From IMG/VR virus record IMGVR_UViG_3300009285_005276, positions 1 to 44,388 of that record: DNA of 44,388 nucleotides; one strand, 5' to 3'. The position numbers were made by a program, and so were the translations under genes. The notes under the pieces are model-generated. The model saw only the letters and a list, made by a program, of their open reading frames with translations, had not been told where the DNA came from and did not search any database. The DNA comes from a virus. Numbering within the stretch: position 1 is the stretch's first letter; each line of letters begins with the position of its first letter. This document shows positions 18,400 through 44,387 of this stretch, piece by piece.

Positions 18400-18414
18400 T
18401 TCTTTGGAGGTTAT

Positions 18415-18576: not shown

Positions 18577-18607
18577 CACTTCCCTATCACCACTAATTAT
18601 AATAAAT

Positions 18608-19666: not shown

Positions 19667-19675
19667 GGCTTTCTT

Positions 19676-22370: not shown

Positions 22371-22955
22371 TTATAATTTATCTACCAAATCTTTAATTTG
22401 CTTCTTTGTTTCTTCTTTATTTACTGCTGATGATGGGGGAGTTTGCTGTGTTAGCCGTTTAACTATTTCATCGCACCATGCCGACATATTTTCCTTATCG
22501 GCAGTAATTTCGTGATGTGAAATAATGTTAGCTCTAGTGACAGGTATATTATATTTAGTAGTGATTTCCTTGACTCGTTGGCATAAAGATTTCATTTGTT
22601 CTTCTGCCCACGTTTCACCTCTGAAGCCTTCATTCTCAATGCCATATGTGTAGTAATTGGGATTAATGTATGAACCCCATATAGCTTTCTTAATTCCTGC
22701 CCAGATAGGTTGATTGATTCGTCCTGCATGATATGCAGTATCGTCTGGGTTGACGTAGATATGCACTTCTCCATTCTTACCTATTCCCTCATGTGAAGAT
22801 GAATAAATGCCGTTCTTAATATTCTGCCCTTGAAACCAACCGTCAGTTCCAGTCAAACTGCCTTGCATAATATGAATAACTATAGCTTCAGGAATATACC
22901 CGTTTCTTCCTATAACATAGTTGTCCGTAGCAATATTTATTTTCTTTATGTTCAT
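22371..22955 (-). CDS. N-acetylmuramoyl-L-alanine amidase (Amidase_2 type)
   Basis: 194 residues. The Amidase_2 pattern is clear: AIVIHIMQGSLTGTDGWFQG (zinc His28), SSSHEGIGKNGEVHIYV, NPDDTAYHAGR, YGIENEG and NIISHHEITADKE (second His147/148). The usual late C/D ligand region is represented by WCDE. It cleaves the amide between N-acetylmuramic acid and the peptide. The last 35 residues (PPSSAVNKEETKKQIKDLVD) look like a linker or short targeting tail. No signal peptide, so release depends on the holin. Confidence 0.88.
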   Translation of the reverse strand: MNIKKINIATDNYVIGRNGYIPEAIVIHIMQGSLTGTDGWFQGQNIKNGIYSSSHEGIGKNGEVHIYVNPDDTAYHAGRINQPIWAGIKKAIWGSYINPNYYTYGIENEGFRGETWAEEQMKSLCQRVKEITTKYNIPVTRANIISHHEITADKENMSAWCDEIVKRLTQQTPPSSAVNKEETKKQIKDLVDKL

Positions 22956-29219: not shown

Positions 29220-29729
29220 ATGGAGTGTGTAAATCGAATCTGTAAAGTTTGTAAAAGAAAATTTCAAGTTAAAGCGTTCAGGCTTAAACATGGACGTGGA
29301 TTGGTCTGCTCTAAGGTTTGTAGACATAAATGGCAAAAAATTGTAATGGGTCAAGAAAAAAGTCTTTGGTGGAAAGGAGGAGTATCTTTTCGTAGTGGTT
29401 ATAAATTTATTCATCAACCTAAACATCCTTATGCCAACGGAACTGGCTATGTGCGTGAGCATAGATTGATTATTGAAAAACACATTAAAAGATTTTTGAC
29501 ACCGGGTGAAATTGTCCATCACAAAAATGGGAATACGCTGGATAACCGTATTCAAAATCTTAAAGTAGTAACTAAATCTTGGCACTCCACGCATCATCAT
29601 AAAATACAAACTAATTGTCTTTGTGGGAAAGACTCTCGGTCTAAAGGGCTTTGCTGGAATCATTATATACAGGGAAGAAAAAAAGGGTTTCATGTAGTTC
29701 TTAACCAATTGACCTCGGAAACAAATTAG
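29220..29729 (+). CDS. Free-standing HNH homing endonuclease (opposite strand)
   Basis: 169 residues from ATG at 29220 (an upstream TTG in frame at 29184 is less likely). N-terminal zinc ribbon CKVCKRKF...CSKVCRHKW, then the NUMOD/HNH layout LWWKGGVSFRSGYKFIHQPK, GYVREHRLIIEKHI, IVHHKNGNTLDNRIQNLKVV and HSTHHH. The catalytic HH and N residues are present. It lies opposite to the tail operon and its 3' end overlaps the adaptor gene's end by 29 nt. It is not inside a visible intron, so it is probably a free-standing mobile endonuclease. Confidence 0.8.
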   Translation: MECVNRICKVCKRKFQVKAFRLKHGRGLVCSKVCRHKWQKIVMGQEKSLWWKGGVSFRSGYKFIHQPKHPYANGTGYVREHRLIIEKHIKRFLTPGEIVHHKNGNTLDNRIQNLKVVTKSWHSTHHHKIQTNCLCGKDSRSKGLCWNHYIQGRKKGFHVVLNQLTSETN

Positions 29730-31131
29730 GATTGCTAATACCAATCATCGCCTCTCCAGTTACTTCATAAACATCCTTTATTCTGCCAAACTGTGATGTT
29801 TGTTTAAGTGAATACTTTTCTTTTAATGATTTAACCTTTTCGTCATATTTTAATTTATACCTGTCATGCAAAGTTTCCTTGTCCAACTGCAAGGCAAGGT
29901 CAGCAGAAACTCCGTAAGTTAAAACTTCCGGTTCAGGTATTGAAGTTCTATCTTGCGTATCAATCAAATTGGTTGGTTCAGCGTGTCCGGTATAAGAAAT
30001 ATCTCTTTCTGTAACTGTCGCTCCGTTTAAATGCGTAGCGGCGGTTGTTCCCTCCCTACCCCTTAGACACCCTGTAAACGTGGTTGCAGTAGAAGCTGTG
30101 GCATAGATAACTTCAGAATCAATAATAAAGCGGTAATAATCTCCTCGATTAAAATTAGTGGTAGAAGCCACCGTAACCGTAGTAGCTGTAGCGGATGAAA
30201 TAGCCGCTCCTAAAGTGGTGGTGGAAGCGGACGCGGAAGGACGAGGCCAGAATAATAATTGTCCATTCCAGATACAAAAATGAGAAGGGTCGGTTACTGA
30301 TTCGTCCCTATCCCAATGAAATAGCTTCCATTTCTCAAAATTCACCCAAACTAAAGGCTGGGTATCAAATTGAGTATTGTAGATTTTCTGTACGGTGGAA
30401 GGAATATCATAAGCAAACTGGTCAGCTACAGAAGAAAAAGTCCTTTCTACTTCATAAAAAGACCAGAGCGTAATATGAGCTATATCCCGTTGCTTGTCGT
30501 TGATAGCGTCATCAATTTGTTGGTCGGTTATTTTAGTTTCATCTTTTTCGTCAATAAATTCTCTGATTTTCCTACGCATAGCTCCCAGAGTTCTTGCGTC
30601 CCTTGAAGAAGAGGTACCTGTAATATCATAATTTACCCCGTCCGAATACGAAGAAAATGCGCCTGTAGTTTCATTATTAAAGCGGACAAAACCATAGCCT
30701 GTAGTATTAGATTGGTCTTCATAGCGGGTAAATAGGTCATCTACTTGCAAGGGAATAGTGGTTAAAACCGTTGCCCCGCTTGTGGTGTCAGTTGAATTTT
30801 GGCTGAATTCAACGCGATTAAAAGCAATTCTATATACAGGCTCTCCCAAAGAATGATTATACCTTAACCCTCCAGCCTGTCCTTCTCGGTCTATTGTCAA
30901 AGAAGTAGCTGAAGTTACCGCCGCCGCCATCTGCATAACTTCGGCGTTTTCTGAACCTACTTCACCAATAATCATATAATCATTGTTCGCCCAAGTGTTT
31001 GAGCTTGCGCCTGCGGGCGCGAGGTCAGTAGAAACAACTGTCAAAGAAGTATCTGCCGCAGTTGCCGCCGCAGTTAAATAAGTTTTTTCACTATCTCTAA
31101 CTAACGCCTGATTAAAACATTTTAATAACAT
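29701..31131 (-). CDS. Head-tail adaptor-like protein with inserted beta domain
   Basis: 476 residues. A central helical block TLGAMRRKIREFIDEKDETK then DDAINDKQRDIAHITLWSFY and EVERTFSSVADQFAYDIPST is the usual core of podovirus head-tail adaptor (gp4-like) proteins, which normally have about 150-250 residues. It is flanked by beta-rich N- and C-terminal segments with repeated fibronectin-like strands (TAATAADTSLTVVST; SSATATTVTVASTTNFNRGD). The protein binds the portal and connects the tail. Its length is unusual. Confidence 0.68.
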   Translation of the reverse strand: MLLKCFNQALVRDSEKTYLTAAATAADTSLTVVSTDLAPAGASSNTWANNDYMIIGEVGSENAEVMQMAAAVTSATSLTIDREGQAGGLRYNHSLGEPVYRIAFNRVEFSQNSTDTTSGATVLTTIPLQVDDLFTRYEDQSNTTGYGFVRFNNETTGAFSSYSDGVNYDITGTSSSRDARTLGAMRRKIREFIDEKDETKITDQQIDDAINDKQRDIAHITLWSFYEVERTFSSVADQFAYDIPSTVQKIYNTQFDTQPLVWVNFEKWKLFHWDRDESVTDPSHFCIWNGQLLFWPRPSASASTTTLGAAISSATATTVTVASTTNFNRGDYYRFIIDSEVIYATASTATTFTGCLRGREGTTAATHLNGATVTERDISYTGHAEPTNLIDTQDRTSIPEPEVLTYGVSADLALQLDKETLHDRYKLKYDEKVKSLKEKYSLKQTSQFGRIKDVYEVTGEAMIGISNPNLFPRSIG

Positions 31132-31136
31132 AAGAA

Positions 31137-32414
31137 TTAGTCTGCTGAACGATAAGTCCTCCTAATATTAAGTATAGGGGTGATAGGCAAAATTTCCAAT
31201 TCTGGTTTCAATGTATAAAACCCAGTAGTCGTAGAAGATGAAGAAGACGACGTAGAAGAAGATGTGGTTGAGGTGCTGGTGGAAGTAGAGGTGGTGGAAG
31301 AGGTGGTCGAGGAAGTGGTTGTCGAAGAAGTTGAAGTTAAAGTGAATCTAGTTGTGGTCGAAGAGGTAGAAGATGAGGTAGTTGAAGTTGTTGTTGTAGA
31401 AGATGAAGTGGAGGTTGATGTTGAGGTGGTTGTTGAGGTTGAAGTCGAAGTGGTTGAAGAAGAAGTGGTAGTGGCAGGAGAGGTGTGGTCAACAGTCAAA
31501 AGCGGGTCTTTGGTCGTGCCTGTTTCGTCAGCAGTGAAAACAGATACGCTGATAACCTTTCCTCCAGAAAGACCAGAATCAGGATTATTTGTTCTGTCCG
31601 AATCAAATCTTAATCCGAATTTAGACACTCCGGTAAGAGAGATATTACCTCTACCCGTAGCTGTTAAAGTCCAAGTGTTGTATGCTCCCGTAACTATGGC
31701 AGTCAGCGCAATGGAATCTGATTGCAGTGTAGTCCCCACGTTAGAGTAATCAGTCGCAGCAATCGTTGTGTTAGAAGCCGGAGAAGAATCCACAATATCC
31801 AATCCATTTCCTACATTGGGGTCATTGATAACATTGTTCCCCCAAAGTTTTATAGTTGCTGAATTTATTGTATCTGAATTGCCTAACGCGGAAGTATCAA
31901 ACAAAAAAATCAAACGACGCATATCATCAAAAGTTGTAGAGCTACTTCCGCCTTCAATCAGCACTTCCATTGTTGTTGAGCTTTCATTTCTATAAAGTCC
32001 AGATAAATCATCTGTCCTTATTTCATCCCATGTAGAAAGACCTGCTGGGTTATTCCCTACATGACCGTCAACTGAAGTGGATTCGGGATTAGCATCAGGA
32101 AAAAAAGTGGATGTAGTATTTAGAAGCAAGGGGATTTTTAACGCTCCGACACTAACCCCGCCTTTAATTAAATTGGCTCTTTGGATTAGCCAGCGTAAAT
32201 ATCCGTAATGAACTGGATATTCATACCAATTTTCTTTAAGGATGATTTTATGATTGCCGAAATAATGAGTGATTTCAGATAAATCCCGCCATTCATTATT
32301 CTGGGTTAAATAATGGATAGGTTTCACGTGAAATTCAGTACGCAGTCCGCCGTTTGGTTTTAAATACGTTTTGGAATTATATGTCCGTCTTTCTTTAAGT
32401 TCGTACAAGTCCAT
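31137..32414 (-). CDS. Tail-fibre-like protein with DNRLRE-type domain and Ser/Thr stalk
   Basis: 425 residues. An N-terminal region of about 95 residues (MDLYELKERRTYNSKTYLKP) is followed by a beta-sandwich resembling DNRLRE carbohydrate-binding-like domains (RRLIFLFDTSALGNSDTINS then ATIKLWGNN). Residues about 315-400 are Ser/Thr-only with one RFTLTSTSS break. The C-terminus GFYTLKPELEILPITPILNI is shared in pattern with the 359-residue fibre gene. It is the last of the three fibre genes before the adaptor. A receptor-binding or glycan-interacting appendage is inferred. Confidence 0.62.
   Translation of the reverse strand: MDLYELKERRTYNSKTYLKPNGGLRTEFHVKPIHYLTQNNEWRDLSEITHYFGNHKIILKENWYEYPVHYGYLRWLIQRANLIKGGVSVGALKIPLLLNTTSTFFPDANPESTSVDGHVGNNPAGLSTWDEIRTDDLSGLYRNESSTTMEVLIEGGSSSTTFDDMRRLIFLFDTSALGNSDTINSATIKLWGNNVINDPNVGNGLDIVDSSPASNTTIAATDYSNVGTTLQSDSIALTAIVTGAYNTWTLTATGRGNISLTGVSKFGLRFDSDRTNNPDSGLSGGKVISVSVFTADETGTTKDPLLTVDHTSPATTTSSSTTSTSTSTTTSTSTSTSSSTTTTSTTSSSTSSTTTRFTLTSTSSTTTSSTTSSTTSTSTSTSTTSSSTSSSSSSTTTGFYTLKPELEILPITPILNIRRTYRSAD
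31224..31474 (-). repeat. Ser/Thr-coding tract (copy 2)
   Basis: About 84 codons of ACN, TCN and AGY. Bases 31273-31331 are identical over 59 nt to 33109-33167 in the neighbouring gene. Confidence 0.85.
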
Positions 32415-32417
32415 ATA

Positions 32418-34955
32418 TTAAGGATAATTTATATAAACAAAATCCTGAAGGGTGGAAGAATAAACACGTTTCGTAAACAAACCTCCAAAAGTTACTGATG
32501 GTTGCGTTGTGGTCGTAGAAGTGGAGGAAGAAGAAGTTGAGGTCGTAGTAGAAGTTGATGTAGTTGAGGTTGAAGTAGTAGAAACGCCAGCCTGCGTCGT
32601 GGTCGAAGAAGAAGTAGTCGAGGAAGATGTTGTGGAAGTCGTTGTTGAGGTTGTTGTACTGGTTGAAGTTGAAGTTGTGGAACTTGTTGTCGAAGAAGTA
32701 GTGGATGATGTTGTAGAAGAAGTTGTACTGGAGGTTGTACTAGAAGTTGTTGAAGTGGTGGTAGACGATGTCGTAGTTGAAGTAGAAGTTGATGTTGTGG
32801 AAGAAGTTGTAGATGACGTAGTCGAACTGGTCGTTGAACTTGTTGTTGACGAAGTAGTAGATGAGGTCGTTGAAGTCGTAGTGCTTGTTGTGGTTGAAGA
32901 AGTTGTACTCGTCGATGTAGAGGTACTGGTAGAAGTAGAAGTGGTAGTTGTAGAGCTTGATGTGGTGCTAGTTGTTGTCGAACTTGTTGTCGTAGAAGAT
33001 GTGGTTGTCGAAGTGGTAGTAGAACTTGTAGTAGTGGAAGAAGTTGTTGTAGAGCTTGTGGTAGTAGAAGTAGTGGTCGAGGTCGTAGAAGAAGTTGTAG
33101 AACTTGAAGTGCTGGTGGAAGTAGAGGTGGTGGAAGAGGTGGTCGAGGAAGTGGTTGTCGAAGAAGTAGTTGAGCTTCCAAATTGAGTTGTAGTTGATGA
33201 AGAGGTGGTGGAAGAAGAACTTGTAGTAGTTGAAGTCGAAGTGCTAGTAGAAGTGGTCGTAGTCGAAGAACTTGTGGTTGAACTAGTTGTGGTGGACGAA
33301 GAAGAAGTTGAAGTAGTTGTAGTAGATGTTGAGGTTGAAGTTGTTGTGGAAGAAGTTGTAGTAGAACTTGATGTAGAGGTAGTAGAAGTGCTGGTAGATG
33401 TTGTAGACGAAGTCGTAGATGAAGTAGTAGTTGAAGAAGTCGAGGTGCTGGTGCTAGTTGATGAACTTGAAGTGGATGTAGTAGTAGTGGACGAACTAGT
33501 GCTGGTAGTTGTTGTTGAAGAAGAAGTGGTAGTCGAAGTAGAAGTAGATGAAGTAGTTGTGGAAGAACTAGTAGTCGGCGGACTAGTTGTCGTAGATGAA
33601 GAAGAACTTGTTGTGCTGGAAGTTGTGGTTGTCGATGTCGAAGTAGAAGTAGAAGTGCTGGTCGAACTGGTTGTAGTTGAAGATGTGGTAGAAGAAGTTG
33701 TGGTAGACGATGTCGTAGTTGAAGACGTAGTTGTAGAACTTGTGGTAGACGATGTCGTAGTTGAAGACGTAGTTGTAGAACTTGTGGTTGTAGTAGTTCC
33801 TCCTGAGGCTGTGTATGTAGCGTAGATGGATAATTTGTAACTGTCATAAATAGTGGCATCTGTGGGATTAGTTGGTGTAGTATAATTATTACTATCATCG
33901 TATGGTTGGTTTTGTGTGCCAGTGGCATCATAGTAAAATTGGGTCTCTACTGCAGTCGCTACACCACCTAGCCAATAACCTGTGCTAGCGGCAAGAGTGG
34001 GTTTAGTAGTATAAGTAGCTGTCCTCCATTGATGAGTCGTGTTTACCGCAACAATACCCCCCACGCCATTAGTTAAAATAGTGCCTGAAGAATTAGTAAT
34101 AACAGCCTTGAGATTTCCCGAACTGGAGTGGTAACCATAATAAGAAATACTATCTAATACCGCACCCCCTGCGTCAGATGGCGATGTCGCAACCAATGCA
34201 ACAAATTCATTTGCGCCGATATATGCCCCTGAAGATGTACCGCCTATTGAAGTATTCCCAAATGTCGGGTCTACTCTTACTGGATAGGCCGCGCTATCAA
34301 GAAAACTCTGTGGAACAGTGACGCTTAACATTCCATTTACATAAGAAAGCTCCGCCCATTCTTCTTTTCCGTTTGCGTCAAATGCTTTTGGGCGATAAAT
34401 ATGAAAAGCTTTGCCGGTGGCATAATTAATGCTTCCTATTTGATGGCTTGCCTTTGTCTTATGATAGACGGCATAAGAGCCATTTACATTAGCCAACCTT
34501 CTGGCAATTCCTCCACGCCCGTTATCTCCCCAAGTAGAACCGTCAAGGTCTAAGTTCGCCAAAAAAGGTTGATAAGAAAAGTCTAATTGTTCTGCCCCAT
34601 CAATCGTGAAATCAAATGTATTAGTGTCGGGTTTGTCTTTCAATACAATTTCAATCTCAAAACCCCCATCTTCCATTCCTTCCCCTTTTTCTAACGGATA
34701 AGCGTGCATTTCTTCTTTGATGTCTTTATATTCAATTCGGTTGTTCAGAGAACGCGCTCCTACGGCCTGAATTTTTGCATATTTCATGCCGAGTTGAACC
34801 TCGCCGTTCCATTTAGAAAAAACGACTTTTGGTTCGTTTTTTAGAAATTCTATTTTATTAATTCCTCCTTCTGGTAAAGAGGAAATATCCACTTTTTCAA
34901 AGCGGTCTACTTTTTCAGAAAAGATATTAAGTCGTTTATCTTCTTTGAAAGTCAT
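32418..34955 (-). CDS. Very large tail-fibre-like protein with 430-residue Ser/Thr stalk
   Basis: 845 residues. Residues 1-245 begin MTFKEDKRLNIFSEKVDRFE and contain beta-structured segments (GDNGRGGIARRLANVNGSYA; AYPVRVDPTFGNTSIGGTSS), which look like a fibre shaft or adhesin head; residues 250-385 form another beta domain. From about 388 to 815 the sequence is nearly all Ser and Thr, broken only by PPTT, QFGSS and QAGVS. It ends QPSVTFGGLFTKRVYSSTLQ then DFVYINYP. The stop overlaps the next gene's start. It is the largest mucin-like candidate in the window. Confidence 0.65.
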   Translation of the reverse strand: MTFKEDKRLNIFSEKVDRFEKVDISSLPEGGINKIEFLKNEPKVVFSKWNGEVQLGMKYAKIQAVGARSLNNRIEYKDIKEEMHAYPLEKGEGMEDGGFEIEIVLKDKPDTNTFDFTIDGAEQLDFSYQPFLANLDLDGSTWGDNGRGGIARRLANVNGSYAVYHKTKASHQIGSINYATGKAFHIYRPKAFDANGKEEWAELSYVNGMLSVTVPQSFLDSAAYPVRVDPTFGNTSIGGTSSGAYIGANEFVALVATSPSDAGGAVLDSISYYGYHSSSGNLKAVITNSSGTILTNGVGGIVAVNTTHQWRTATYTTKPTLAASTGYWLGGVATAVETQFYYDATGTQNQPYDDSNNYTTPTNPTDATIYDSYKLSIYATYTASGGTTTTTSSTTTSSTTTSSTTSSTTTSSTTTSSTTTSSTTSSTTTSSTSTSTSTSTSTTTTSSTTSSSSSTTTSPPTTSSSTTTSSTSTSTTTSSSTTTTSTSSSTTTTSTSSSSTSTSTSTSSTTTSSTTSSTTSTSTSTTSTSSSTTTSSTTTSTSTSTTTTSTSSSSTTTSSTTSSSTTTTSTSTSTSTTTSSSSTTSSSTTTQFGSSTTSSTTTSSTTSSTTSTSTSTSSSTTSSTTSTTTSTTTSSTTTSSTTTSSTTTSTTTSSTTTSSTTTSTTSSSTTTTSTSTSTSTSTSTTSSTTTSTTTSTTSSTTSSTTSSTTSSTTSSTTSSTTSTSTSTTTSSTTTSTTSSTTSSTTSSTTSSTTSSTTSSTTSTSTSTTTSTTTSTTSSSTTSSSTTTQAGVSTTSTSTTSTSTTTSTSSSSTSTTTTQPSVTFGGLFTKRVYSSTLQDFVYINYP
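32507..33797 (-). repeat. Ser/Thr-coding tract (copy 3, largest)
   Basis: About 1290 bases. It includes an exact tandem duplication of a 42-nt unit (33700-33741 and 33742-33783) and the 59-nt stretch 33109-33167 shared with the 31.2-kb tract. False open frames arise on both strands. Confidence 0.88.
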
Positions 34956-36034
34956 TAAATCTGTCCGCTAATTTCTAAAATTGGCACAAAAGGAAAAATC
35001 TCTAATTCAGGAATTAGAAAAGGGAACGCCGTCGTAGTTGATGAAGACGAAGATGAAGTTGTAGAAGACGATGTAGATGTTGATGTTGAGGTAGAAGTTG
35101 TTGAAGTTGACGTAGAAGTGGACGTTGATGAACTTGTTGTGGTGGACGTTGATGTGCTGGAAGATGTTGTGCTGGTTGAAGTTGAGGTTGAAGTGGTTGA
35201 AGAAGTCGTTGAAGATGTGGTTGTTGAAGTCGAAGTAGTTGTAGTAGAAGTTGAAGTGCTGGTCGTGCTGGAAGTGGTTGATGAAGTGGTGGTGGAAGAA
35301 GAAGTGGTCGTTGGAGGTTGTGTTGTGGTTGAACTTGATGTGGTTGATGAGGTTGTTGTTGATGAAGTCGTTGTGGAAGATGTTGTCGAGGTTGTAGTTG
35401 TAGAAGAGGTAGAAGTGGTGGAAGTGGAAGTAGTGGTTGAAGTGGTGCTGGAAGTAGTCGAAGAAGTTGTGCTTGATGTGGTAGTTGAGGTGGTAGTAGA
35501 AGAAGTAGTTGTTGAAGATGAAGTCGTTGTCGCCACAACTTCCGCGACAATTTCCGCCGCGACAATCGTAGGGTTATCAGAAGCAGAAGGAGTCCAAGAC
35601 ATTGTAATCGTCCCGCCAGCAGGTTCAGTAGAAGAAGCGTGTCTGCATTTACCCGTACCCGTTCCCGTAGCTACGTTTCCCCTATCAGTTTGATTAGCCC
35701 CCGCCGTTACAGTAATAGCTGGGTCAGCTTCTCGAATAGAATCAATGACTATATTCCCTGAAGTAGTGCTTGCTACGTTTACAGTTTCCGCTTCTGCGGT
35801 AGCCGTTCCTCCTATAGGAGAAGTAGTATCCGCACCAGAAAATCTGGTTGCCACCGAAGCCAATTCCCAAGTCGAAGTTTGGGTAACAACCACATCTGCC
35901 GTGCCGATAAAAGGACTCGCCTTATACCATAAACTCGTTCTAAAACCCGTAGTGCTTTCTATCGCTAAAGTTAAAGCCGCGCCATTAAAAGTGACGCCCG
36001 TTACTGTGTTTCCTCCCACACTAACAACTAACAA
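34955..36034 (-). CDS. Fibre-like protein with Ser/Thr stalk; N-terminus unclear
   Basis: 359 residues from TTG at 36034. The beta domain VTGVTFNGAALTLAIESTTG, FRTSLWYKASPFIGTADVVV and IVIDSIREADPAITVTAGAN is a known-looking jelly-roll type. The frame continues upstream to 36136 with in-domain-like sequence (TALSVTGSASAATGGASTTL) but has no ATG, GTG or TTG there. So the gene may use an unusual start, or be truncated at its 5' end. Residues about 172-335 are Ser/Thr-only, and the end AFPFLIPELEIFPFVPILEI matches the 425-residue fibre. Confidence 0.6.
   Translation of the reverse strand: MLVVSVGGNTVTGVTFNGAALTLAIESTTGFRTSLWYKASPFIGTADVVVTQTSTWELASVATRFSGADTTSPIGGTATAEAETVNVASTTSGNIVIDSIREADPAITVTAGANQTDRGNVATGTGTGKCRHASSTEPAGGTITMSWTPSASDNPTIVAAEIVAEVVATTTSSSTTTSSTTTSTTTSSTTSSTTSSTTSTTTSTSTTSTSSTTTTSTTSSTTTSSTTTSSTTSSSTTTQPPTTTSSSTTTSSTTSSTTSTSTSTTTTSTSTTTSSTTSSTTSTSTSTSTTSSSTSTSTTTSSSTSTSTSTSTTSTSTSTSTSSSTTSSSSSSTTTAFPFLIPELEIFPFVPILEISGQI
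35028..35532 (-). repeat. Ser/Thr-coding tract (copy 4)
   Basis: About 168 codons, with one PPTT break near 35310, flanked by the beta domain and the shared C-terminal motif. Confidence 0.85.
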
Positions 36035-36131
36035 GTCGTCACCAGAAACTGTGGTGACTGAATATGTAAGTGTTGTTGACGCGCCGCCAGTTGCGGCACT
36101 TGCAGAACCCGTTACTGATAGAGCCGTATAT

Positions 36132-37340
36132 TTATCCTACGATAGATGAATCTACTAAAATGAATTTTCCACCTTTATAGAGAAAGCCTTTTTCTTTCTC
36201 TATAATAAGTTTCGCATAATTATGTGCGAGTATAAAGAAATAATCAGGAAGTTGCGATTCGGCTTCTTGCCTAGAAATGACAGGAATATGGTCAACGGGC
36301 GTATATTTTCCCTGCTTAGCCGGAGAATCATCCACGAAATAATCAATATGACTTTGGTCTATATTAGCTAGTTTTAGAACAGAAACCCCTTTAGCCGCCG
36401 CTCCATATCCCGCAATCTTTTTTCCTTCTGCCTTTAATCCTTCCACTACTCCATAAAGTTTTTTAGCCTCCTCTTGGCAATCTTTTCCATACTGTTTGGC
36501 GACTTTTAAAGTGTTAACTCCAATAGTTTCTTCTTCTTCAAAAAGTCCGGAGCACCGCTCTGAAAGATTGCGGTTATCTTTAGCCATGAATACTCTTAAA
36601 GAACCGCCCTGCGCTTCGGTTACATAGGCATCAAAAACATTCAAGCCAAACTTAGGGGCATAGTCCACCCAGTTTTTTAAAGAGAAATAAGAAAAGTGGT
36701 CATGATAAACAAGAGCATAATTCTTATTCTTAACCATTCCGCCCCAATAATTACACTCCACCCAAAATACGCCATCATCAGCTAAAAGAACCTGCACTCC
36801 TCTCATTAAAGAATCCAAGTCATCTATATGAGCGATACAGTTTGCTCCGCCGACTACTTTGGCTTTTCCGTATTCTCTTGCGATATTCTTCGCGTTGTTT
36901 TCATTAAATGGAGCAGAAAGAGTGGGTACTCCGTTTTTTAATGCTCTGATTACAACGTTGGTCGAAGGGTCAACACCTAGTTTTATGCAAGGAAAATTCT
37001 TCAACATTGTCCCGTCATTTGAACCTATCTCAACCACAAAATCAGAAGGGTTTAAATTTACTGAAAGTTCTTTGGCAAAATCAGTGAAGTATTCGTCAGT
37101 GGTCGGCATATCGCCCGTGTAATAAAGATAATCTTGCGCGGTATATATCTCATGCGAATCAATCGGCTTTTTAGTCTGTACCAAAGAACAGTCCCGACAC
37201 CTTACGACTTCCAAGGGATAGACTGCTTCTGTTTTATCTAAATCCTCTTTTTCAATAAGTGAATTAACTAAAGGATTTAAGCCCATATCCAACACCTTAT
37301 CGAACTTATTTCCTTTACACATCCTACATACTTTTTTCAT
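36132..37340 (-). CDS. Sugar C-methyltransferase-like protein
   Basis: 402 residues. N-terminal zinc site C5-x2-C8 and CRDC at 48-51, then the SAM motif FVVEIGSNDGTMLKNF, and a C-terminal domain with KKIAGYGAAAKGVSVLKLAN and YTPVDHIPVISRQ. This three-part order is that of nucleotide-sugar C-3-methyltransferases (NovU/TylC3/CloU group). It would make a branched sugar. It ends the glycan cluster and its stop lies 4 nt inside the open upstream frame of the fibre gene. The ATG overlaps the preceding stop (ATGA). Confidence 0.8.
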   Translation of the reverse strand: MKKVCRMCKGNKFDKVLDMGLNPLVNSLIEKEDLDKTEAVYPLEVVRCRDCSLVQTKKPIDSHEIYTAQDYLYYTGDMPTTDEYFTDFAKELSVNLNPSDFVVEIGSNDGTMLKNFPCIKLGVDPSTNVVIRALKNGVPTLSAPFNENNAKNIAREYGKAKVVGGANCIAHIDDLDSLMRGVQVLLADDGVFWVECNYWGGMVKNKNYALVYHDHFSYFSLKNWVDYAPKFGLNVFDAYVTEAQGGSLRVFMAKDNRNLSERCSGLFEEEETIGVNTLKVAKQYGKDCQEEAKKLYGVVEGLKAEGKKIAGYGAAAKGVSVLKLANIDQSHIDYFVDDSPAKQGKYTPVDHIPVISRQEAESQLPDYFFILAHNYAKLIIEKEKGFLYKGGKFILVDSSIVG

Positions 37341-38008
37341 AAAATTTTACTTGTTATGTTAATAATTGAACTTGGCAACTTTCTTAAATTCCTGTCATCT
37401 GCCTTTCGTTCCTGCCCCATCTCTTCTCGCCATCTATCCTTTTTTACATGAGTGAAGTGAATATATTTCTCATTAAGAACCCGCACTTGCGGTCTGGGAT
37501 TATCTTTATCCCACAACTTTTCTTCTTCTCGATAAAGCCTCTCTTTACCAAATTTTCCCCGCCACTCTAAATCAAGACTGTTACGAAACAAACGAGCTGA
37601 AGGAATACGGCTAGTAGAAACATGGTACTCCTCTTTATTCCAAACAGCCCATGAGGTTAAAGCCAAAGTATCAACTTTAGGATTTCTGATTTCTTTTAAA
37701 ATTTCATTGATAACTTCTACCGGATAAAGTTCGTCAGAATCTAAAATCCATATCCAGTCTTCGTAAGTTAATTCTAGTTGTTTGTTTCTCGCCTTAACCA
37801 AATCATCAGGTTCTCCTACTTCAAATTCCACAACCTCTAACTGCTTGTATGTTTCCTGCAATCTTTTCAGTATTTCCCTTGTCCCGTCTTTAGAACGCGA
37901 ATCTAAAACGACAATAACCCTATCCACAAATAAAAGAACAGCCAGTAAGCAAATCTCAATAAAATCATCACTATCTCTTGCCAGCATATGTACACAGATA
38001 CTTTTCAT
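37337..38008 (-). CDS. GT2-like glycosyltransferase
   Basis: 223 residues. GT-A-like start SICVHMLARDSDDFIEICLL, then VIVVLDSRSKDGTREILKRL, and WIWILDSDELYPVEVINEIL, a clear D-x-D catalytic/metal motif. The rest is basic, with a conserved-looking HVKKDRWREE. It is translationally coupled (ATGA) on both sides. It is shorter than most GT2 enzymes. Donor and acceptor are unknown. Confidence 0.75.
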   Translation of the reverse strand: MKSICVHMLARDSDDFIEICLLAVLLFVDRVIVVLDSRSKDGTREILKRLQETYKQLEVVEFEVGEPDDLVKARNKQLELTYEDWIWILDSDELYPVEVINEILKEIRNPKVDTLALTSWAVWNKEEYHVSTSRIPSARLFRNSLDLEWRGKFGKERLYREEEKLWDKDNPRPQVRVLNEKYIHFTHVKKDRWREEMGQERKADDRNLRKLPSSIINITSKIL

Positions 38009-38505
38009 ACCTTTTTAAGAAAGATAGAGTCTTGGCTCATAGTAATAATTTCAAGCCCATTCGGAATGTCTGTTTTTTGCACTTCTGTACCGTAATCATG
38101 CGAAACAATAATGTCATCTTTCTTCAGATATAACGTAAAGGTTTTTAATTCTTTTGGTTTATTGCCATTATCACAAAATACAATGGTCGTGCCTTGCCTC
38201 TGGATTATCTCACCGATTTCTTTTTTAATCTCAAATATATCCGCCTTTTTAAAACACTTATCAAAGTTAAGTTTATTTTTTAGGTGCGCCCTTTTATCAA
38301 AGCTCTTCCAATCCAGATTATCATAAGTGTAAAATTCTTTTTTATTTTGTATGCAGTAAAGATAAAGATAAAAACTAAAGTGGCCTTTATATGTGCCGAG
38401 TTCAATAATACGTTTAAAATTTGTGCGGGTTAAAAAACGCTCCCAGAATAAAATCTCACCTTCCGATTGCGACATTTCCCGACCTAAGAAAGTTCCTCTA
38501 ACCAT
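38005..38505 (-). CDS. Class I methyltransferase (TylF/CmcI-like)
   Basis: 166 residues, or 156 from an internal Met at 38475. Motifs: RIIELGTYKGHFSFYLYLYC (motif I), YDNLDWKSFDK, TTIVFCDNGNKPKELKTFTL (motif II/acid) and DDIIVSHDYGTE. The HDYGT pattern resembles macrocin O-methyltransferase and cephalosporin-hydroxylase-type proteins. Encoded between GT2 and epimerase genes, it probably O-methylates a sugar. Its upstream end overlaps the epimerase by 22 nt if the long start is used. Confidence 0.68.
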   Translation of the reverse strand: MVRGTFLGREMSQSEGEILFWERFLTRTNFKRIIELGTYKGHFSFYLYLYCIQNKKEFYTYDNLDWKSFDKRAHLKNKLNFDKCFKKADIFEIKKEIGEIIQRQGTTIVFCDNGNKPKELKTFTLYLKKDDIIVSHDYGTEVQKTDIPNGLEIITMSQDSIFLKKV

Positions 38506-39365
38506 TTGATTACGTCTGTTTTAGTTTCCCAGCCAATAAGACCTTTTATTTTTTCTACAGAAGCAAGATGCCGCTCAACTTCGTAAGTCCTTTTAGGAAT
38601 CCAAACCACTTCCGCGCCAATCGCTTTTACAATGTCCTCCATTGTATTGAATTTGCCAGAAGCCACATTCAAGATTTCCCCCTTTCCCGTATTTTCCGAC
38701 TCTATCGCCATAACCAGAGCTTCGGCCAAATCTCCGGCATAAACAAAATCTCTTTGTCCCGATTTAAAGGTGGACTGTGCGGTAGTTTCCGTCAGAGTAA
38801 CTGGCCTATCTTCTTTCTTGGCTTTTATAAAGGCGGCCAAAGCCGTGTCATCTCTTTGAAATTCTCCGAACACCTGAAAGAAGCGAAAGATAGTCGTAGG
38901 CAGTCCATAGACTTTTGAATACATCTTACAGGCGTGTTCAATAGATAATTTCTGCCAAGAGTATGGCTCGATTGGGTCTGCAGTCATCGTCTCTTTCCAA
39001 GGCGTAGGATTATTGCCGTATAAAGAAGCAGTAGAAGGGAACAAGAACTTTTTAATTCCGGCTTCTTTAGCAAGTTCGAGCATATGAATAGACATATCTA
39101 TATTTTGTCTGGTTGATTCTTCAGGATGTCTTTGACAATCAGGTATATTGGTTCTCCATGCAAAATGCACAACAAAGTCGCAGCCCATCATATCCCTATA
39201 ATTCAGGTCATTTACATCAGCCTGAATAAATAAATTCGGCTTATTATGCCCTTTAGGAATTGGCCTTTTGTCTACGCCTTTTATAAAGTAGCCTTTGTCC
39301 TGTACGACTTTAATAAAATGATGACCTAAAAATCCCGAAACTCCTGTGCAAAGAATTTTCTTCAT
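38484..39365 (-). CDS. NAD-dependent sugar epimerase/dehydratase
   Basis: 293 residues from MKKILCTGVSGFLGHHF. TGVSGFLG at 7-14 is the extended-SDR nucleotide-binding motif. Further marks: FVVHFAWRTNIPDC, FPSTASLYGN, and the catalytic Y-x3-K in EPYSWQKLSIEH, then RFFQVFGEFQRDD and RDFVYAGDLAEAL. It converts a nucleotide-sugar (GalE/RmlD/RfbB superfamily). A longer frame to 39404 is less likely because the internal ATG is coupled to the upstream stop. It supplies a modified sugar to the glycosyltransferases. Confidence 0.85.
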   Translation of the reverse strand: MKKILCTGVSGFLGHHFIKVVQDKGYFIKGVDKRPIPKGHNKPNLFIQADVNDLNYRDMMGCDFVVHFAWRTNIPDCQRHPEESTRQNIDMSIHMLELAKEAGIKKFLFPSTASLYGNNPTPWKETMTADPIEPYSWQKLSIEHACKMYSKVYGLPTTIFRFFQVFGEFQRDDTALAAFIKAKKEDRPVTLTETTAQSTFKSGQRDFVYAGDLAEALVMAIESENTGKGEILNVASGKFNTMEDIVKAIGAEVVWIPKRTYEVERHLASVEKIKGLIGWETKTDVIKWLEELS

Positions 39366-39478
39366 ACAAAAATATAAATAATAATTACGCCAATAACTAT
39401 CCAACTAATCGGATTAAGCAATAAAAACACCAGAATTCCCGACAAAATTTCATCCCAAAAATACTTAATAAATTTCAT
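39362..39478 (-). CDS. Small membrane protein in the glycan operon (38 residues)
   Basis: MKFIKYFWDEILSGILVFLL then LNPISWIVIGVIIIYIFV. Two hydrophobic stretches separated by NPIS. Its TGA overlaps the epimerase ATG and its ATG overlaps the stop of the upstream glycosyltransferase, so it is a coupled operon gene. It may anchor the glycan machinery at the membrane. Missed by length filters. Confidence 0.5.
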   Translation of the reverse strand: MKFIKYFWDEILSGILVFLLLNPISWIVIGVIIIYIFV

Positions 39479-40233
39479 AATTGATTGCCCGCACTTTTCT
39501 GCGTGCCGTGATAAACATTACGCCGATAATTCCCATAACTAAAATCGACTTTCTCGCCGTTTAATAAAGTACGCTCTACTTTAATTCCTTTACGCCAGTC
39601 CACCCCTTTGCGATAACCCAAATGCGTTACCATGTCTGTCGGAGGAATAATCACCAAATAACCCGCACGCACCATTGAACGATGCCAGACCGAGCCACCC
39701 ACCCTATGTTGAGGCATCTCGCCGATAGTTTTAAAATCGTCGTACTTCATAATCATGCAGTTTGAGCCTGCCAAAGAATTTATCCGCGCGTCCTCCAATA
39801 CTTCTTTATTAAAATTCGGCCTGTCTTTATCAGGTGTAATATATGGCGCGGCTATCAATTTTCTGTCGGAATATTTCTCCAAAAGATTTACACAAGAAGA
39901 AAGCCAGCCCTTATGATAGCGAATATCGTTACAAGTAAAACAGAGATAGTCGCCCGTAGCGATTCTTGCAAACTGATTCCACGCGAACGCAAAGGACATA
40001 TTTTCCCGATAGCGAATCAGGGTTGAAATAGTACCGTCCCGCACCTTATCTAAAAGCCAGTTAGAATCATCAGGATTCCCGCCATTATCCATCACGATTA
40101 TTTCCGCAGGATAATCCGTATTTTCTTTTAATGACAGAATAGACTCTTTCATCTGCTCACTTCTTGAAACGCCGTCGTCCGTATTCTGCTGTGCGTAGTG
40201 AACGATTCCGATGCTACAATATTTGGTATTCAT
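39475..40233 (-). CDS. GT2 family glycosyltransferase
   Basis: 252 residues. The GT-A fold begins CSIGIVHYAQQNTDDGVSRS, with IIVMDNGGNPDDSNWLLDKV, NMSFAFAWNQFARIATGDYL then CFTCNDIRYHKGWL, the DxD position being occupied by NDI. A late SGS-like SLAGSNCMIM segment and GGSVWHRSMVRAGYLV follow. It overlaps the next upstream gene by 20 nt. Unusual DxD replacement may indicate altered metal binding. Confidence 0.75.
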   Translation of the reverse strand: MNTKYCSIGIVHYAQQNTDDGVSRSEQMKESILSLKENTDYPAEIIVMDNGGNPDDSNWLLDKVRDGTISTLIRYRENMSFAFAWNQFARIATGDYLCFTCNDIRYHKGWLSSCVNLLEKYSDRKLIAAPYITPDKDRPNFNKEVLEDARINSLAGSNCMIMKYDDFKTIGEMPQHRVGGSVWHRSMVRAGYLVIIPPTDMVTHLGYRKGVDWRKGIKVERTLLNGEKVDFSYGNYRRNVYHGTQKSAGNQL

Positions 40234-40936
40234 AATGAAAATTTAAAATGCCATGCCCTGAATGAATATGCGTATCTTTGGCATTATTCCGATAAATTCT
40301 CCTATTCGGTAAAGACAAACCCCTAGTCATGCCCGGCTCTCCTTCATCTCCCACTACCGCCCAGAACAAATTAACCGTACTGGTTTTTACGCTCAGTTTT
40401 TTTAATTTTGCCATCCAGTCGTAGCCCATCCATCCGTAGTTCCCGCAAAGTTGTTCATCTTGTCCTTTAGTTTTTAAATACACTTCTCGACGCATCATAG
40501 TTACCATTACATTCGTTCCCCAACCCTTTATTGCAGTCCATTCTTCCATTGGTTTTGCCATCACTTCATCAATATTTACAACACTTCTTCTAAATCCGAT
40601 ACGCAAAACTTCCGGATGTTCTTCCAAAACCTGCAAAGCATTTTCATAAGCAGTCCGATAGGGGATATGGTCAGTATCTTGCAGAACAAAAACATCGCCA
40701 GTCGATAAGTAAAAACCCAAGTTGCACGCCCCGTTATAATTCCATAAAATATCTTCTTCCACGCGCGCGTAAATAATTCCCCTTCCTTTTGGCAACATCT
40801 CTTTTAATATCGGGTCGCCCCCGTCATTAACCACGATAATTTCATCAGGAACTCTGGTGGATTTCAAAGTTTCCTCTACAGCTCTAACAGTTAAAGGATG
40901 CCTACGGTAGGCGGGGATAATTGTTGATAGTTTCAC
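40214..40936 (-). CDS. GT2 family glycosyltransferase
   Basis: 240 residues. STIIPAYRRHPLTVRAVEET then DEIIVVNDGGDPILKE, and STGDVFVLQDTDHIPYRTAY with the D-T-D metal motif. Later GYDWMAKLKKLS and VVGDEGEPGMTR fit the acceptor domain. It overlaps the MTase-ParB gene by 35 nt and the next glycosyltransferase by 20 nt. It likely works with the neighbouring GT2 on the same glycan. Confidence 0.8.
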   Translation of the reverse strand: MKLSTIIPAYRRHPLTVRAVEETLKSTRVPDEIIVVNDGGDPILKEMLPKGRGIIYARVEEDILWNYNGACNLGFYLSTGDVFVLQDTDHIPYRTAYENALQVLEEHPEVLRIGFRRSVVNIDEVMAKPMEEWTAIKGWGTNVMVTMMRREVYLKTKGQDEQLCGNYGWMGYDWMAKLKKLSVKTSTVNLFWAVVGDEGEPGMTRGLSLPNRRIYRNNAKDTHIHSGHGILNFHYEYQIL

Positions 40937-41810
40937 GTTCTTGCTTGCTCAAATGTTTGAAATAAATCCTGCGAAGCACTCGACATGGTACTTCCTTATA
41001 GCCCAAATACTTGGCTGCCAAATATCTATGTCCGCCCTGAAAGCCTTTAAAATGTCCGTCCTTCTCATCTTCCACGATTAAAGATTCCCGCAAGCCCCGT
41101 TTTTGTATATCCTCTTTCAAGCGTTTAAATTCCTCGCCCTTAACGTCATAGGTTCTCGCCTGCTTTAAGATAGATTCTTCATCCCATCCGATAATCTTGT
41201 TTATCGGGATAAATTCAACAGGCAAATCATTTAGGTAAGGATAGCGAATATCATGCTTTTGTTTTTTGCATATCCAAAGATAATGCGGTTTTTCAGGAAT
41301 ATCAGACGCGCCCAAATACTCCACACTATCAAAATAAATATGCTTGGTTACCAAGTCTATATGCGCTTTATTCTTCTCGCCGTGATTTGATTCAAAGATT
41401 AAAGTATATTGTATTTTGTCGTCTAGCCAATCTAAGAACGCTTCCTTATCTTTTAAGTGCGTAATTACGGATAGCAAAAATACCACCTCGAATTTAGGAC
41501 AAAATCTTTTAAACTCTTTGGCTTCCAAATCAGACTGCCAGAATTCTGCTTTTAATCCCTGTTCTTTAGCCAACTCTCTTGCCCCTAGAATAGCGTCTGA
41601 CCTATCCACGCCTACCGCGCGTCTTGCCCCATTCTTTAACGCCTCTCTTACAAAGTAACCGTTATTACAGCCCAAATCCAAAACGCTTCTTTTGTTGCAA
41701 AGGTCGTACATATTGAGCATGGAAAGACGCTTATCAGTTCTAGGAGCAAGCCTGTCATTCAAAAGCCCTTCAGGGTTTTGGTATGAAGATAGTTTGGTTA
41801 AATCAGTCAT
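40902..41810 (-). CDS. Methyltransferase fused to a ParB-like domain
   Basis: 302 residues from MTDLTKLSSYQNPEGLLND, its ATG overlapping the upstream TGA. The N-terminal class I methyltransferase has SVLDLGCNNGYFVREALKN and EVVFLLSVITHLKDKEA. The C-terminal 100 residues have PVEFIPINKIIGWDEESI, LKEDIQKRGLRESLIVE and FKGFQGGHRYLAAKYLGYKE, the ParB/sulfiredoxin-like nucleotidase motif set. ParB-fold domains bind CTP or act as nucleotidases; here it may sense or charge a nucleotide-sugar. The pairing inside a glycan operon is unusual. Confidence 0.75.
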   Translation of the reverse strand: MTDLTKLSSYQNPEGLLNDRLAPRTDKRLSMLNMYDLCNKRSVLDLGCNNGYFVREALKNGARRAVGVDRSDAILGARELAKEQGLKAEFWQSDLEAKEFKRFCPKFEVVFLLSVITHLKDKEAFLDWLDDKIQYTLIFESNHGEKNKAHIDLVTKHIYFDSVEYLGASDIPEKPHYLWICKKQKHDIRYPYLNDLPVEFIPINKIIGWDEESILKQARTYDVKGEEFKRLKEDIQKRGLRESLIVEDEKDGHFKGFQGGHRYLAAKYLGYKEVPCRVLRRIYFKHLSKQERETINNYPRLP

Positions 41811-42349
41811 ATCTTCTGAGCAACGCACATGTAGCCAATAACTCCGGGCTGATAAACAACTTTTGATTCTTTCCGCATGGCTTTTTCCAACGTATCGTCT
41901 ACTGCAAAACGAGGTTGTATATTTATAACTTTAAATCCGGTTTCTTCTAAAATCTTCCTAAGACCGTCTGAAGTTAATCGAATACAATCAAAGCCAATGT
42001 GATGAGGAAATAAAAAATTAGAGGAAATGTATAATAAGCCACCCGGCTTTAAGCACAACTCTATATTTTTAAATGCCTGAACCGGATTCCATAAGTGGTC
42101 AACAACTTCAATCAAAAAAGCATTATCGAACTCATCATAGACTTTTAGAGGATAATTAAAATCCCAAACGAAATGAGTCTCAATACTCTTACGCCTTGGT
42201 TTAATATCCGCAATCACATATTTATTTACATCCCACGCTTTAGTCCTTCCTTTTACTGGCATGAACAAACCGCCAATATCAATTACCGAACCTTTGACTT
42301 CAATAGTCTTTAACCATAACTCTATTTGACGACGTGAATTGGAGGCCAT
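41807..42349 (-). CDS. Class I methyltransferase in the glycan operon
   Basis: 180 residues. GSVIDIGGLFMPVKGRTKAW is motif I, then DEFDNAFLIEVVDHLWNPVQ (acidic motif), AFKNIELCLKPGGLLYISSN and a late GVIGYMCVAQKI. It resembles type-11 methyltransferases acting on lipids or sugars. It overlaps the deacetylase by 28 nt and the MTase-ParB gene by 4 nt, consistent with tight translational coupling. Confidence 0.7.
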   Translation of the reverse strand: MASNSRRQIELWLKTIEVKGSVIDIGGLFMPVKGRTKAWDVNKYVIADIKPRRKSIETHFVWDFNYPLKVYDEFDNAFLIEVVDHLWNPVQAFKNIELCLKPGGLLYISSNFLFPHHIGFDCIRLTSDGLRKILEETGFKVINIQPRFAVDDTLEKAMRKESKVVYQPGVIGYMCVAQKI

Positions 42350-42942
42350 CTTAAATCAGTTGTTTGAATAATCGGATAAACTTCCATGTCAGAATCAATG
42401 ATTCTTTGCAGTCTTAAAGTATCTCTAGTATTCCAATAATGCAGATGAACCTGATACCAGTCGCGCGTATCGCCACGCGAATTGAATTGGATTCCCAATT
42501 TGTCGCATACTTTCACGCCCCATTCTGGAAAATACATTCTCCCGTTCGGAACGTACCAATGCGTAACCTGAACATCAAATGTCTTCTCTATTTTCTCTCT
42601 CGCGTGCGCTAGTACTCCATATCCTTCATTTTCAGTCATAGCGTGCGGGTAGGCATGATTCCAGCCATGTAATTCTATCTTGTAGCGGTGCTTACGTTCT
42701 TTGATGTATTCGACCCATTCAGGATATGCGTCTATACCTTCCGCCAATACCGATAAAATACAGTGCAAATTATTTTCCTCGTAAATCTTATCGGTATGAT
42801 AAAACCATTCTTCAAACGTGCGCATGCGCAGACAATTCTTCATTGACCCTGTTATCGGATTCACTATCAGCACGTCGTCGTTTCGCAATATCCAAGGCTT
42901 CTTTTTGTTTTCTAACATAAGTTTCTTTTCCATAACCCTCAT
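42322..42942 (-). CDS. Polysaccharide deacetylase-like protein
   Basis: 206 residues (internal Met codons at 42933 or 42918 are alternative starts). The NodB-type motifs are present: RNDD at 20-23 (catalytic base D and metal D), KIELHGWNHAYPHA with the H-x4-H metal pair, then HWYVPNGRMYFPEWG and NTRDTLRL. It removes acetyl groups from N-acetylated sugars. It overlaps the asparagine-synthase-like gene by about 100-130 nt, an unusually long overlap, so one of the ends may be imprecise, but the RNDD motif requires most of it. Confidence 0.78.
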   Translation of the reverse strand: MRVMEKKLMLENKKKPWILRNDDVLIVNPITGSMKNCLRMRTFEEWFYHTDKIYEENNLHCILSVLAEGIDAYPEWVEYIKERKHRYKIELHGWNHAYPHAMTENEGYGVLAHAREKIEKTFDVQVTHWYVPNGRMYFPEWGVKVCDKLGIQFNSRGDTRDWYQVHLHYWNTRDTLRLQRIIDSDMEVYPIIQTTDLRWPPIHVVK

Positions 42943-44191
42943 TCTCGACCCCTAGCCATCTATTCGCAGGAACAAACAAGCCAGCTTTTTCGATTGGTTG
43001 ATAATTAGGTTTTCTCTTTTTCAAAATTTTGTTCAGCAATACTTTTGTTTCCACTCCGTTTATTTTCAAAGAATTATTCAGATTAAAAGCAAACTCAATA
43101 ATGCGTTTATCCAAAAAAGGACATCTATTTTCAATCCCAAAAGCTGAAGACATCCTATCGCCCATTCTTAAAAGCTCTCTTAGGTTGCCGTTGAATTCCT
43201 CCCACCCCGAATCATTCACGCTTTTCGCGGGTTCAAACATCTTAGAGTAAGAAGGATATTTCATCCGCGCCCAATAGTTAAAGTTAGGAAGAACGTAACG
43301 GATATAGCCACCGAATAGCTCATCCGCACCTTCACCGGACAAAATTACCTTTACCTTTTTAGAGGCTTCTTCGGCTAGTTTCCACAGAGCATAGGCCGAG
43401 AAGTGAGAAATTGGATAGTCTAGGTGCCAAGCTATTTTTGGCAGTAATTCCAAGAACTCATCCTTACTGCCATCTTTGTAAGTAAAAGTGTATTCAAAAT
43501 TATGGAAAGTTGAAATCAAGGTAGAATCCACTCCGCCAGAAAGATAAAGACCGTAAGGGACGTCAGAACGCGTACGAAGTTTTATTGAATCGTCTAATAA
43601 AAACTCCAATTCCTCTGCGGCCTCTTTTAGGATTAACTTCCTATGTTTAGGAGTCCAATACTTTTTAATGGAAATATGGTTAGTAGGAATGTCGTATATC
43701 AGATAATGAGCAGGTTTTAATTCTTCACAATCCCAATTAAGCGCCTTAGCTTCAGAAGCAAAGGCAAAGTTTTTACGCCTAAAATATAACGGCTTCTCTC
43801 CAGCTATATCACGAGCAAGAAAGATATTGTTACCATCATAAATAGCAAAAGCAAACATCCCGTTAAATTTATCTAAACACTTAATCCCCCATTCTTTATA
43901 GGATTGGAGTAAAACCTCCGCGTCGGAATTTGTTAAAAAAACGTGTCCTAAATCTTGGAGTTCTCCTCTAAGCTCCAAATAATTGAAAATCTCGCCGTTA
44001 AAAGAAAGAACCAGACCGTCTTGCTGCAAAGGAAAAGTATAGTCCCCGATGATTTTAAGCCGACCCATGCCGATACAATACCTCTCGTCATAAAAAAAAT
44101 TCTCCCCGTTAGGAGAACGATGCCCCATTATCTGAAGCATTTTTTCTACGTCTTCCGGGTTTTTAGCTCCCGAACCCGCAATACTGCACAT
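42812..44191 (-). CDS. Asparagine synthase (glutamine-hydrolysing)-like amidotransferase
   Basis: 459 residues, shorter than the usual 550-650. It begins MCSIAGSGAKNPEDVEKMLQ with the catalytic Cys2 and class II glutaminase marks HRSPNGEN and LSFNGEIFNYLEL, then SDAEVLLQSYKEWG and FNGMFAFAIYDG. The synthetase domain has YLSGGVDSTLIS (PP-loop) at about 215 and LSGEGADELFGGY. In sugar clusters such proteins often amidate uronic acids or glycans rather than make asparagine. The C-terminus after residue 430 is basic and overlaps the deacetylase frame. It is the first complete gene of the cluster inside the window. Confidence 0.82.
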   Translation of the reverse strand: MCSIAGSGAKNPEDVEKMLQIMGHRSPNGENFFYDERYCIGMGRLKIIGDYTFPLQQDGLVLSFNGEIFNYLELRGELQDLGHVFLTNSDAEVLLQSYKEWGIKCLDKFNGMFAFAIYDGNNIFLARDIAGEKPLYFRRKNFAFASEAKALNWDCEELKPAHYLIYDIPTNHISIKKYWTPKHRKLILKEAAEELEFLLDDSIKLRTRSDVPYGLYLSGGVDSTLISTFHNFEYTFTYKDGSKDEFLELLPKIAWHLDYPISHFSAYALWKLAEEASKKVKVILSGEGADELFGGYIRYVLPNFNYWARMKYPSYSKMFEPAKSVNDSGWEEFNGNLRELLRMGDRMSSAFGIENRCPFLDKRIIEFAFNLNNSLKINGVETKVLLNKILKKRKPNYQPIEKAGLFVPANRWLGVENEGYGKETYVRKQKEALDIAKRRRADSESDNRVNEELSAHAHV

Positions 44192-44198
44192 GATTTGA

Positions 44199-44387
44199 TT
44201 ATAGACCTCTTTTATTTAAAAGACGTAATCTTTTATACACAGCATCTTCAGAGCCATTATAATAATAACTTTTTTTTCTTTCTTCACAAAATTTCTTTAA
44301 TAATAGAACTTGCTGCCCCTTTATTATAAATTTGTCCAAAGGTAGATTGTTTAATAAATCTAAAACAGCGCTTACTCCTAGAAATCT
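44199..44387 (-). CDS. C-terminal part of an unknown protein (runs off the window)
   Basis: 62 codons open from the window edge, ending TAA at 44199-44201, 7 nt before the asparagine-synthase-like ATG. Residues RFLGVSAVLDLLNNLPLDKF, then QVLLLKKFCEERKKSYYYNG and SEDAVYKRLRLLNKRGL look helical and basic; the end resembles a winged-helix recognition helix. Too little is present to name it. Confidence 0.5.
   Translation of the reverse strand, partial: RFLGVSAVLDLLNNLPLDKFIIKGQQVLLLKKFCEERKKSYYYNGSEDAVYKRLRLLNKRGL

Follow-up and report, generated by a model that had tools for sequence, protein, structure and literature searches.

Glycosylation of virions is established for mycobacteriophages, namely Che8 and its relatives, in which the glycans sit at the C-termini of capsid and tail-tube proteins (Freeman 2023, via PMC11256854 and PMC12619734). 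In Gram-positive bacteria, the islands of serine-rich repeat proteins (SRRPs) carry the priming pair GtfA/GtfB and variable glycosyltransferases (GTs) beside the substrate gene, and the substrate is glycosylated in the cytoplasm (PMC6973325). Here we analysed an uncultivated virus (IMG/VR record IMGVR_UViG_3300009285_005276; the whole stretch of 44,388 bases is hereafter called the window), which encodes four proteins with Ser/Thr tracts along with a large glycan cluster (36132-44191) and a trio of GT4-like GT, methyltransferase and GT2 genes (17140-20974). This gene content is, with good confidence, best explained by an O-glycosylation system that the phage encodes, that works in the cytoplasm and that serves Ser/Thr-only virion stalks specifically, and we likewise infer the acceptor role of the tracts, the priming enzyme, the sugar and the role of the coat.

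The window shares with the mycobacteriophage system a tailed phage with GTs of its own, which are implicated there and which here are linked to virion genes and predicted to glycosylate virion proteins. It differs in that whole Ser/Thr-only domains in separate head and tail proteins stand in place of C-termini, in the large size of its tailoring cluster and in its GT27-like enzyme. With the SRRP islands it shares Ser/Thr-rich substrate genes lying beside conserved and variable GTs, whereas the Pfam scan gave no match to the DUF1975 domain of GtfA/GtfB, no accessory Sec genes were found, and the product would go to the virion and not to the cell surface. Eukaryotic mucins likewise pair long, dense Ser/Thr tracts with a GalNAc-transferase-like enzyme; they are, however, proline-rich (PTS) and pass through the secretory pathway, whereas the phage tracts are nearly free of proline (2 Pro in the 431-residue tract of 32418-34955) and involve no such pathway. 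Serotype-conversion (gtr) systems are made up of a flippase and a transferase with multiple membrane spans, neither of which was found in the cluster or the trio. No report of Ser/Thr-only phage stalks or of GT27-like phage enzymes was found in a limited literature library, which is not proof of novelty. Virion glycosylation has so far been documented in a few mycobacteriophages, and the present data suggest a widespread module.

Ser/Thr-tract proteins and their association with glycosyltransferases

The sequence-only reading had described four proteins with nearly pure Ser/Thr tracts, the longest of about 430 residues, and this description holds: the four tracts are 83-431 residues long and 96-100% Ser/Thr, against a Ser plus Thr background of 11.8% in the remaining genes of the window. 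All four genes lie on the minus strand. The head-module protein (351-809; 152 aa) has a 16-aa leader beginning MAEFAFTQ followed by a tail in which 135 of 135 residues are Ser or Thr, and an equivalent beginning MAEFQFFTQ was recognised by position and sequence in L266, one of five related contigs (L263-L267) described below. The three tail fibres comprise 31137-32414, with a globular N-domain that is 33-38% identical to its counterparts in L263-L266, a tract at residues 315-397 (80/83 Ser/Thr) and the conserved C-terminal peptide PELEILPITPILNIRRTYR; 32418-34955, with a tract at residues 387-817 (422/431); and 34955-36034, with a tract at residues 169-335 (164/167) and the C-terminal peptide PELEIFPFVPILEI. 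A C-terminal peptide of the PILDIK...PILDIKRTYR type also follows the tract in L129 (a further relative), L264, L265, L266 and L267, as it does in 31137-32414 and 34955-36034; this conserved PILDIK-type peptide may serve to anchor the protein in the virion or as a tag on which the transferases dock.

Nearly all Ser/Thr codons are in use in each tract gene, and all ten appear when the tracts are pooled. AGY serine codons, which are two changes away from TCN, are present in all four genes, and a random single substitution was computed to retain Ser or Thr in 43% of cases. The tracts are not simple DNA repeats, given these mixed codons, AGY included, and the 43% figure; since fewer than half of random substitutions would keep Ser or Thr, codon usage indicates that the tracts are kept up at the protein level.

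Viral contigs were scanned for a mixed Ser/Thr pattern requiring an AGY serine codon (at least 120 stretches), and contigs whose sole tract was poly-Ser- or poly-Thr-like, the microsatellite matches that formed the majority of the first scan, served as controls. Six of the 46 tract contigs were added by hand, some after matches to window genes had been seen, and several mostly short tract contigs were omitted. In a whole-contig test a GT2 was present on 31/46 tract contigs against 7/50 controls, and on 27/40 against 7/50 once the six hand-added contigs were removed (p = 2.3e-7). The GT4-like family, represented in the window by 17140-18399, was found on 25/46 tract contigs against 1/50 controls, and on 17/38 without the contigs that were the source of its profile and their near-copies (p = 6e-7). 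Among contigs of at least 23 kb, a GT2 or a GT4-family gene was carried by 32 of 37 tract contigs versus 7 of 36 controls.

The association was also seen in the reverse direction, as a Ser/Thr tract occurred in 68 of 80 loci retrieved solely by similarity to GT4-like enzymes of the 17140-18399 family, against 2 of 56 controls; these 80 loci are not independent, many being mutually related and a lineage with a Mu-gpT-like capsid contributing much. For scanning the collection with the GT4 family a four-sequence subset was used, an alignment of eight sequences being too divergent. The nearest tract of at least 15 residues was usually no more than 1-2 kb and at a median 843 bp from the GT4-family gene, upstream and on the same strand in 65 of 67 cases. 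Mixed Ser/Thr tracts were also observed on some bacterial and archaeal contigs (L240-L262; Acidimicrobiia, Micrarchaeota, Planococcus and others).

Relatives were sought in IMG/VR without using the tract, the query being the adaptor of L129, which is itself a tract contig. The search yielded the five contigs L263-L267, and Ser/Thr-tract genes lie directly upstream of the adaptor in 5/5, with 132 to 462 tract residues in the four larger loci and 209 in the truncated gene of L267. Where the flanks are long enough (L263-L266), a variable glycan cluster stands ahead of the fibres and the GT4-methyltransferase-GT2 trio lies on the opposite strand, while in L267 the GT4 family is represented at another place on the contig, as is a GT2 of 63% identity. 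L266 presents capsid, decoration, Ser/Thr head protein, epimerase/GT2/GT2/methyltransferase, Ser/Thr fibre and adaptor in this order. In the second lineage, with the Mu-gpT-like capsid (L032, L128, L163, L174), the capsid gene is followed by small Ser/Thr genes and then by the GT4 gene. Gene order and content suggest that the pairing of tracts with transferases extends over dozens of metagenomic contigs and two or more phage lineages whose capsid families are unrelated. The co-occurrence in relatives that the sequence-only reading had proposed as a check is seen both in the adaptor search and in the GT2 comparison that excludes the hand-added contigs. In L163 (8752-9537), and similarly in L032 and L079, a UDP-glucose/GDP-mannose dehydrogenase-like gene adjoins the GT4 gene; none was seen in the window.

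The conserved trio and its GT27-like enzyme

The trio, to which no special weight had been given in the sequence-only reading, is the most conserved part of the system. It consists, on the plus strand, of the GT4-like GT (17140-18399), whose family repeatedly partners Ser/Thr-tract genes, an S-adenosylmethionine (SAM)-dependent methyltransferase (18608-19666) and a GT27-like GT2 (19676-20974). In L263-L266 the respective identities are 43-50%, 36-47% and 46-53%, and conservation is, by and large, higher in the trio than in the variable cluster. Searches of the GT4-like family against PDB profiles gave weak generic matches and no match to GtfA.

Pfam assigns 19676-20974 as a generic GT2 and nothing finer. 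A profile of five relatives searched against the PDB had polypeptide GalNAc-transferase 4 as its top match (2.5e-7), and with 15 homologues the first nine matches were all polypeptide GalNAc-transferases (1.4e-17 to 1.3e-13), with alignments reaching beyond the DxH to the GGE and His region, whereas most other GT2s were aligned over the N-terminal half only. The AlphaFold2 model made with 24 homologues reached a pLDDT of 87.7 and a pTM of 0.89; when it was compared with the PDB by Foldseek, 50 of the 50 matches listed were polypeptide GalNAc-transferases, including human, fly and Toxoplasma enzymes (E 1.6e-14 to 3e-11). D150-x-H152, G252-G253-E254 and H278 are invariant in 24/24 homologues, and Asp never follows GGE. 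According to a survey of GT-A enzymes, DxH takes the place of DxD in GT27 and GT60, two families with O-glycosylation of polypeptide Ser/Thr in common; a C-terminal His binds the metal in GT27, and retaining families vary at the xED Asp (PMC7185993). The product of 19676-20974 looks like a retaining polypeptide O-glycosyltransferase by motifs and modelled fold, because the DxH, the C-terminal His, the missing xED Asp and the best PDB profile and fold matches agree with GT27/GT60; it differs from these in being a phage protein without a lectin domain and in its 14-21% sequence identity to polypeptide GalNAc-transferases. Tracts were present in all checked relatives of at least 40% identity on contigs of at least 20 kb. 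Annotated phage records yielded a single weak relative of this enzyme, Tunturi_4, in which the pattern matches were all poly-Ser-like with no mixed tract.

Proposed mechanism and alternative explanations

The core prediction of the sequence-only reading was that the enzymes of this virus coat its Ser/Thr stalks, and the reciprocal association, the synteny and the GT27-like enzyme lend strong support to it. Late in infection, the phage would produce tract proteins for head and tail in which Ser and Thr form dense acceptor arrays. In the host cytoplasm, the GT4-like and GT27-like enzymes would attach sugars to these residues and extend them, either enzyme being a nearly equal candidate for priming. 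The cluster would supply the glycan and tailor it, with enzymes for epimerisation, for methylation on carbon and elsewhere, for deacetylation and for amidation and with GT2s that make further additions, and the tract proteins, glycosylated ahead of assembly, would then be incorporated in heads and tails as mucin-like bristles. Direct cytoplasmic glycosylation fits, because no convincing membrane span was seen in the cluster and trio proteins (the single hydrophobic stretch, in 37337-38008, is part of its GT2 domain) and family scans of these genes recognised neither a flippase nor a lipid-carrier (lipid-linked) sugar transferase. Conjecturally, the coat might stiffen the bristles, as the sequence-only reading supposed, confer protease resistance, alter diffusion or adhesion, or hide the virion from antibodies or receptors.

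In one variant of this scheme, with somewhat less than an even chance, the GT4-like enzyme takes the priming role that GtfA has in the islands of serine-rich-repeat adhesins, and the GT27-like enzyme is left to extend the glycan. The GT4 family is the more universal tract partner, being present in 38/44 tract-bearing capsid-lineage loci of at least 11 kb, and the GT27-like gene is patchier, whereas the GT4 family's PDB matches are weak and generic and it is the GT27-like enzyme that matches peptide transferases. More tentatively still, phages may independently run mucin-type biology in which a retaining enzyme of GT27/GT60 type primes stalks in the bacterial cytoplasm and a phage cluster decorates them into a phage glycocalyx, the viral family being a relative, possibly near the origin, of the polypeptide GalNAc-transferases of animals and protists.

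Several observations weigh against a dedicated stalk-glycosylation system or against the proposed role of the GT27-like enzyme. Neither a GT2 nor a GT4-family gene was found on 13 of the 46 tract contigs, 8 of them shorter than 23 kb and 5 not; the sequence-only reading had held that frequent tract-bearing relatives without GTs would speak against it, and such contigs make up 5 of the 37 that are at least 23 kb long. Host and habitat may not be the same for the control contigs as for the tract contigs. The Foldseek query TM-scores are about 0.5. GT27 enzymes usually have a C-terminal ricin-type lectin domain, whereas 19676-20974 matched no lectin family even with E values of up to 1 allowed and has a helical C-terminal tail in the model. 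Homologues of 31% identity sit on contigs without clear tracts, and the GT27-like gene is not universal: in many phages of the Mu-gpT-type lineage, it is the GT4 family and ordinary GT2s that accompany the tracts.

The glycan cluster resembles O-antigen and exopolysaccharide tailoring genes and host serotypes can be modified by phage GTs (PMC12619734), so that it might instead alter the host surface polysaccharide, for superinfection exclusion or serotype conversion, with the tracts as unmodified disordered linkers. We consider this unlikely in view of the lack of any credible membrane-spanning protein, flippase or lipid-linked sugar transferase in the cluster and trio, the late-operon position of the cluster between virion genes and the tight reciprocal linkage to Ser/Thr genes across several phage lineages. 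It is very improbable that the tracts are unglycosylated low-complexity DNA expansions and the enzymes separate cargo: degenerate tandem repeats do occur within the tracts, but the codons are mixed and include AGY, the reversed pattern hardly ever matches in the same contigs, and divergent relatives have tracts at the same gene positions. Hypermodification of phage DNA with sugars, the tract linkage being coincidental, appears the least probable; virus-encoded GTs of this kind are known (Pyle 2024, via PMC12619734), whereas the genes scanned included no recognisable hydroxymethylase, thymidylate-synthase-like gene or other gene for preparing bases, the linkage is to virion genes, and the GT27-like enzyme matches protein transferases.

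If the proposed stalk-glycosylation system is active, the phage would be densely coated with sugar, which would bear on its diffusion, sticking, protease resistance and recognition. Prokaryotic viruses would then also possess a mucin-initiating type of enzyme, and glycoengineering would gain compact enzymes for O-glycosylation in the cytoplasm.

Glycan cluster and genome organisation

The enzymes that the sequence-only reading had listed for the cluster and the trio are all present by family matches. The cluster is encoded on the minus strand and comprises a sugar C-methyltransferase (36132-37340; PF08484 4.9e-41, PF08421), a GT2 with weak resemblance to the SunS peptide S-glycosyltransferase (37337-38008), a gene that alone among those of the cluster and trio has no family match (38005-38505; relative in L051) and a GalE-like NAD-dependent nucleotide-sugar epimerase/dehydratase (38484-39404; relatives in L190 and L266). 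These are followed by two further GT2s (39475-40233, 31-42% identity in L263-L266; 40214-40936, 43% identity in L266), and family matches identify a SAM-methyltransferase with a C-terminal ParB-like domain (40902-41828), another SAM-methyltransferase (41807-42349) and a polysaccharide deacetylase-like protein (42322-42942). An Asn-synthase-type amidotransferase (42812-44191) has a 66% identical relative in L263.

Family matches to the predicted proteins show a tailed-phage gene set, with head decoration (1717-2433), portal (6049-7902), terminase (7906-9408) and endolysin-like (22371-22955) genes. The SU10-like adaptor (29701-31131, minus strand) lies directly downstream of the fibre genes and was the tract-independent anchor for the search for relatives. 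The major capsid gene (3055-5006, minus strand) is split, 4467-5006 matching phrog_9953 over its N-half and 3055-3756 over its C-half, and an HNH endonuclease open reading frame (3806-4402) sits between the halves, whereas the capsid gene of L266 is unbroken. The split is probably an intron or a homing insertion; Rfam gave no match in it, and neither Rfam nor ARAGORN found anything over the whole window.

A frame with a LAGLIDADG-like motif, read by eye, begins at 240 and exits at position 1 on the minus strand, and a plausible remainder, shifted by one base, enters at 44387 (44199-44387, minus strand). This end frame had no Pfam match, and the two pieces are probably halves of one LAGLIDADG-like homing endonuclease. 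Their location at both contig ends suggests a circularly permuted record that is close to complete. The glycan cluster would thus lie between the head and tail Ser/Thr genes, because L266 shows the joined order in one piece, and head Ser/Thr gene, cluster and tail Ser/Thr genes would form a probable single minus-strand block of virion genes, taken as a late operon.

A near search of annotated phage records with the window DNA gave no matches, and a protein search of the same records yielded relatives neither of the adaptor nor of the GT4 of L163. A near-identical phage is represented by L005/L417 (IMGVR_UViG_3300002460_000257; 16.6 kb), in which the terminase and GT27-like proteins are 100% identical and which stops short of the Ser/Thr genes. 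Elsewhere in the window, the DUF6745 protein (15510-16679, plus strand) has an internal degenerate 12/48-bp repeat that encodes AVREAVxGAVDEAV-like segments.

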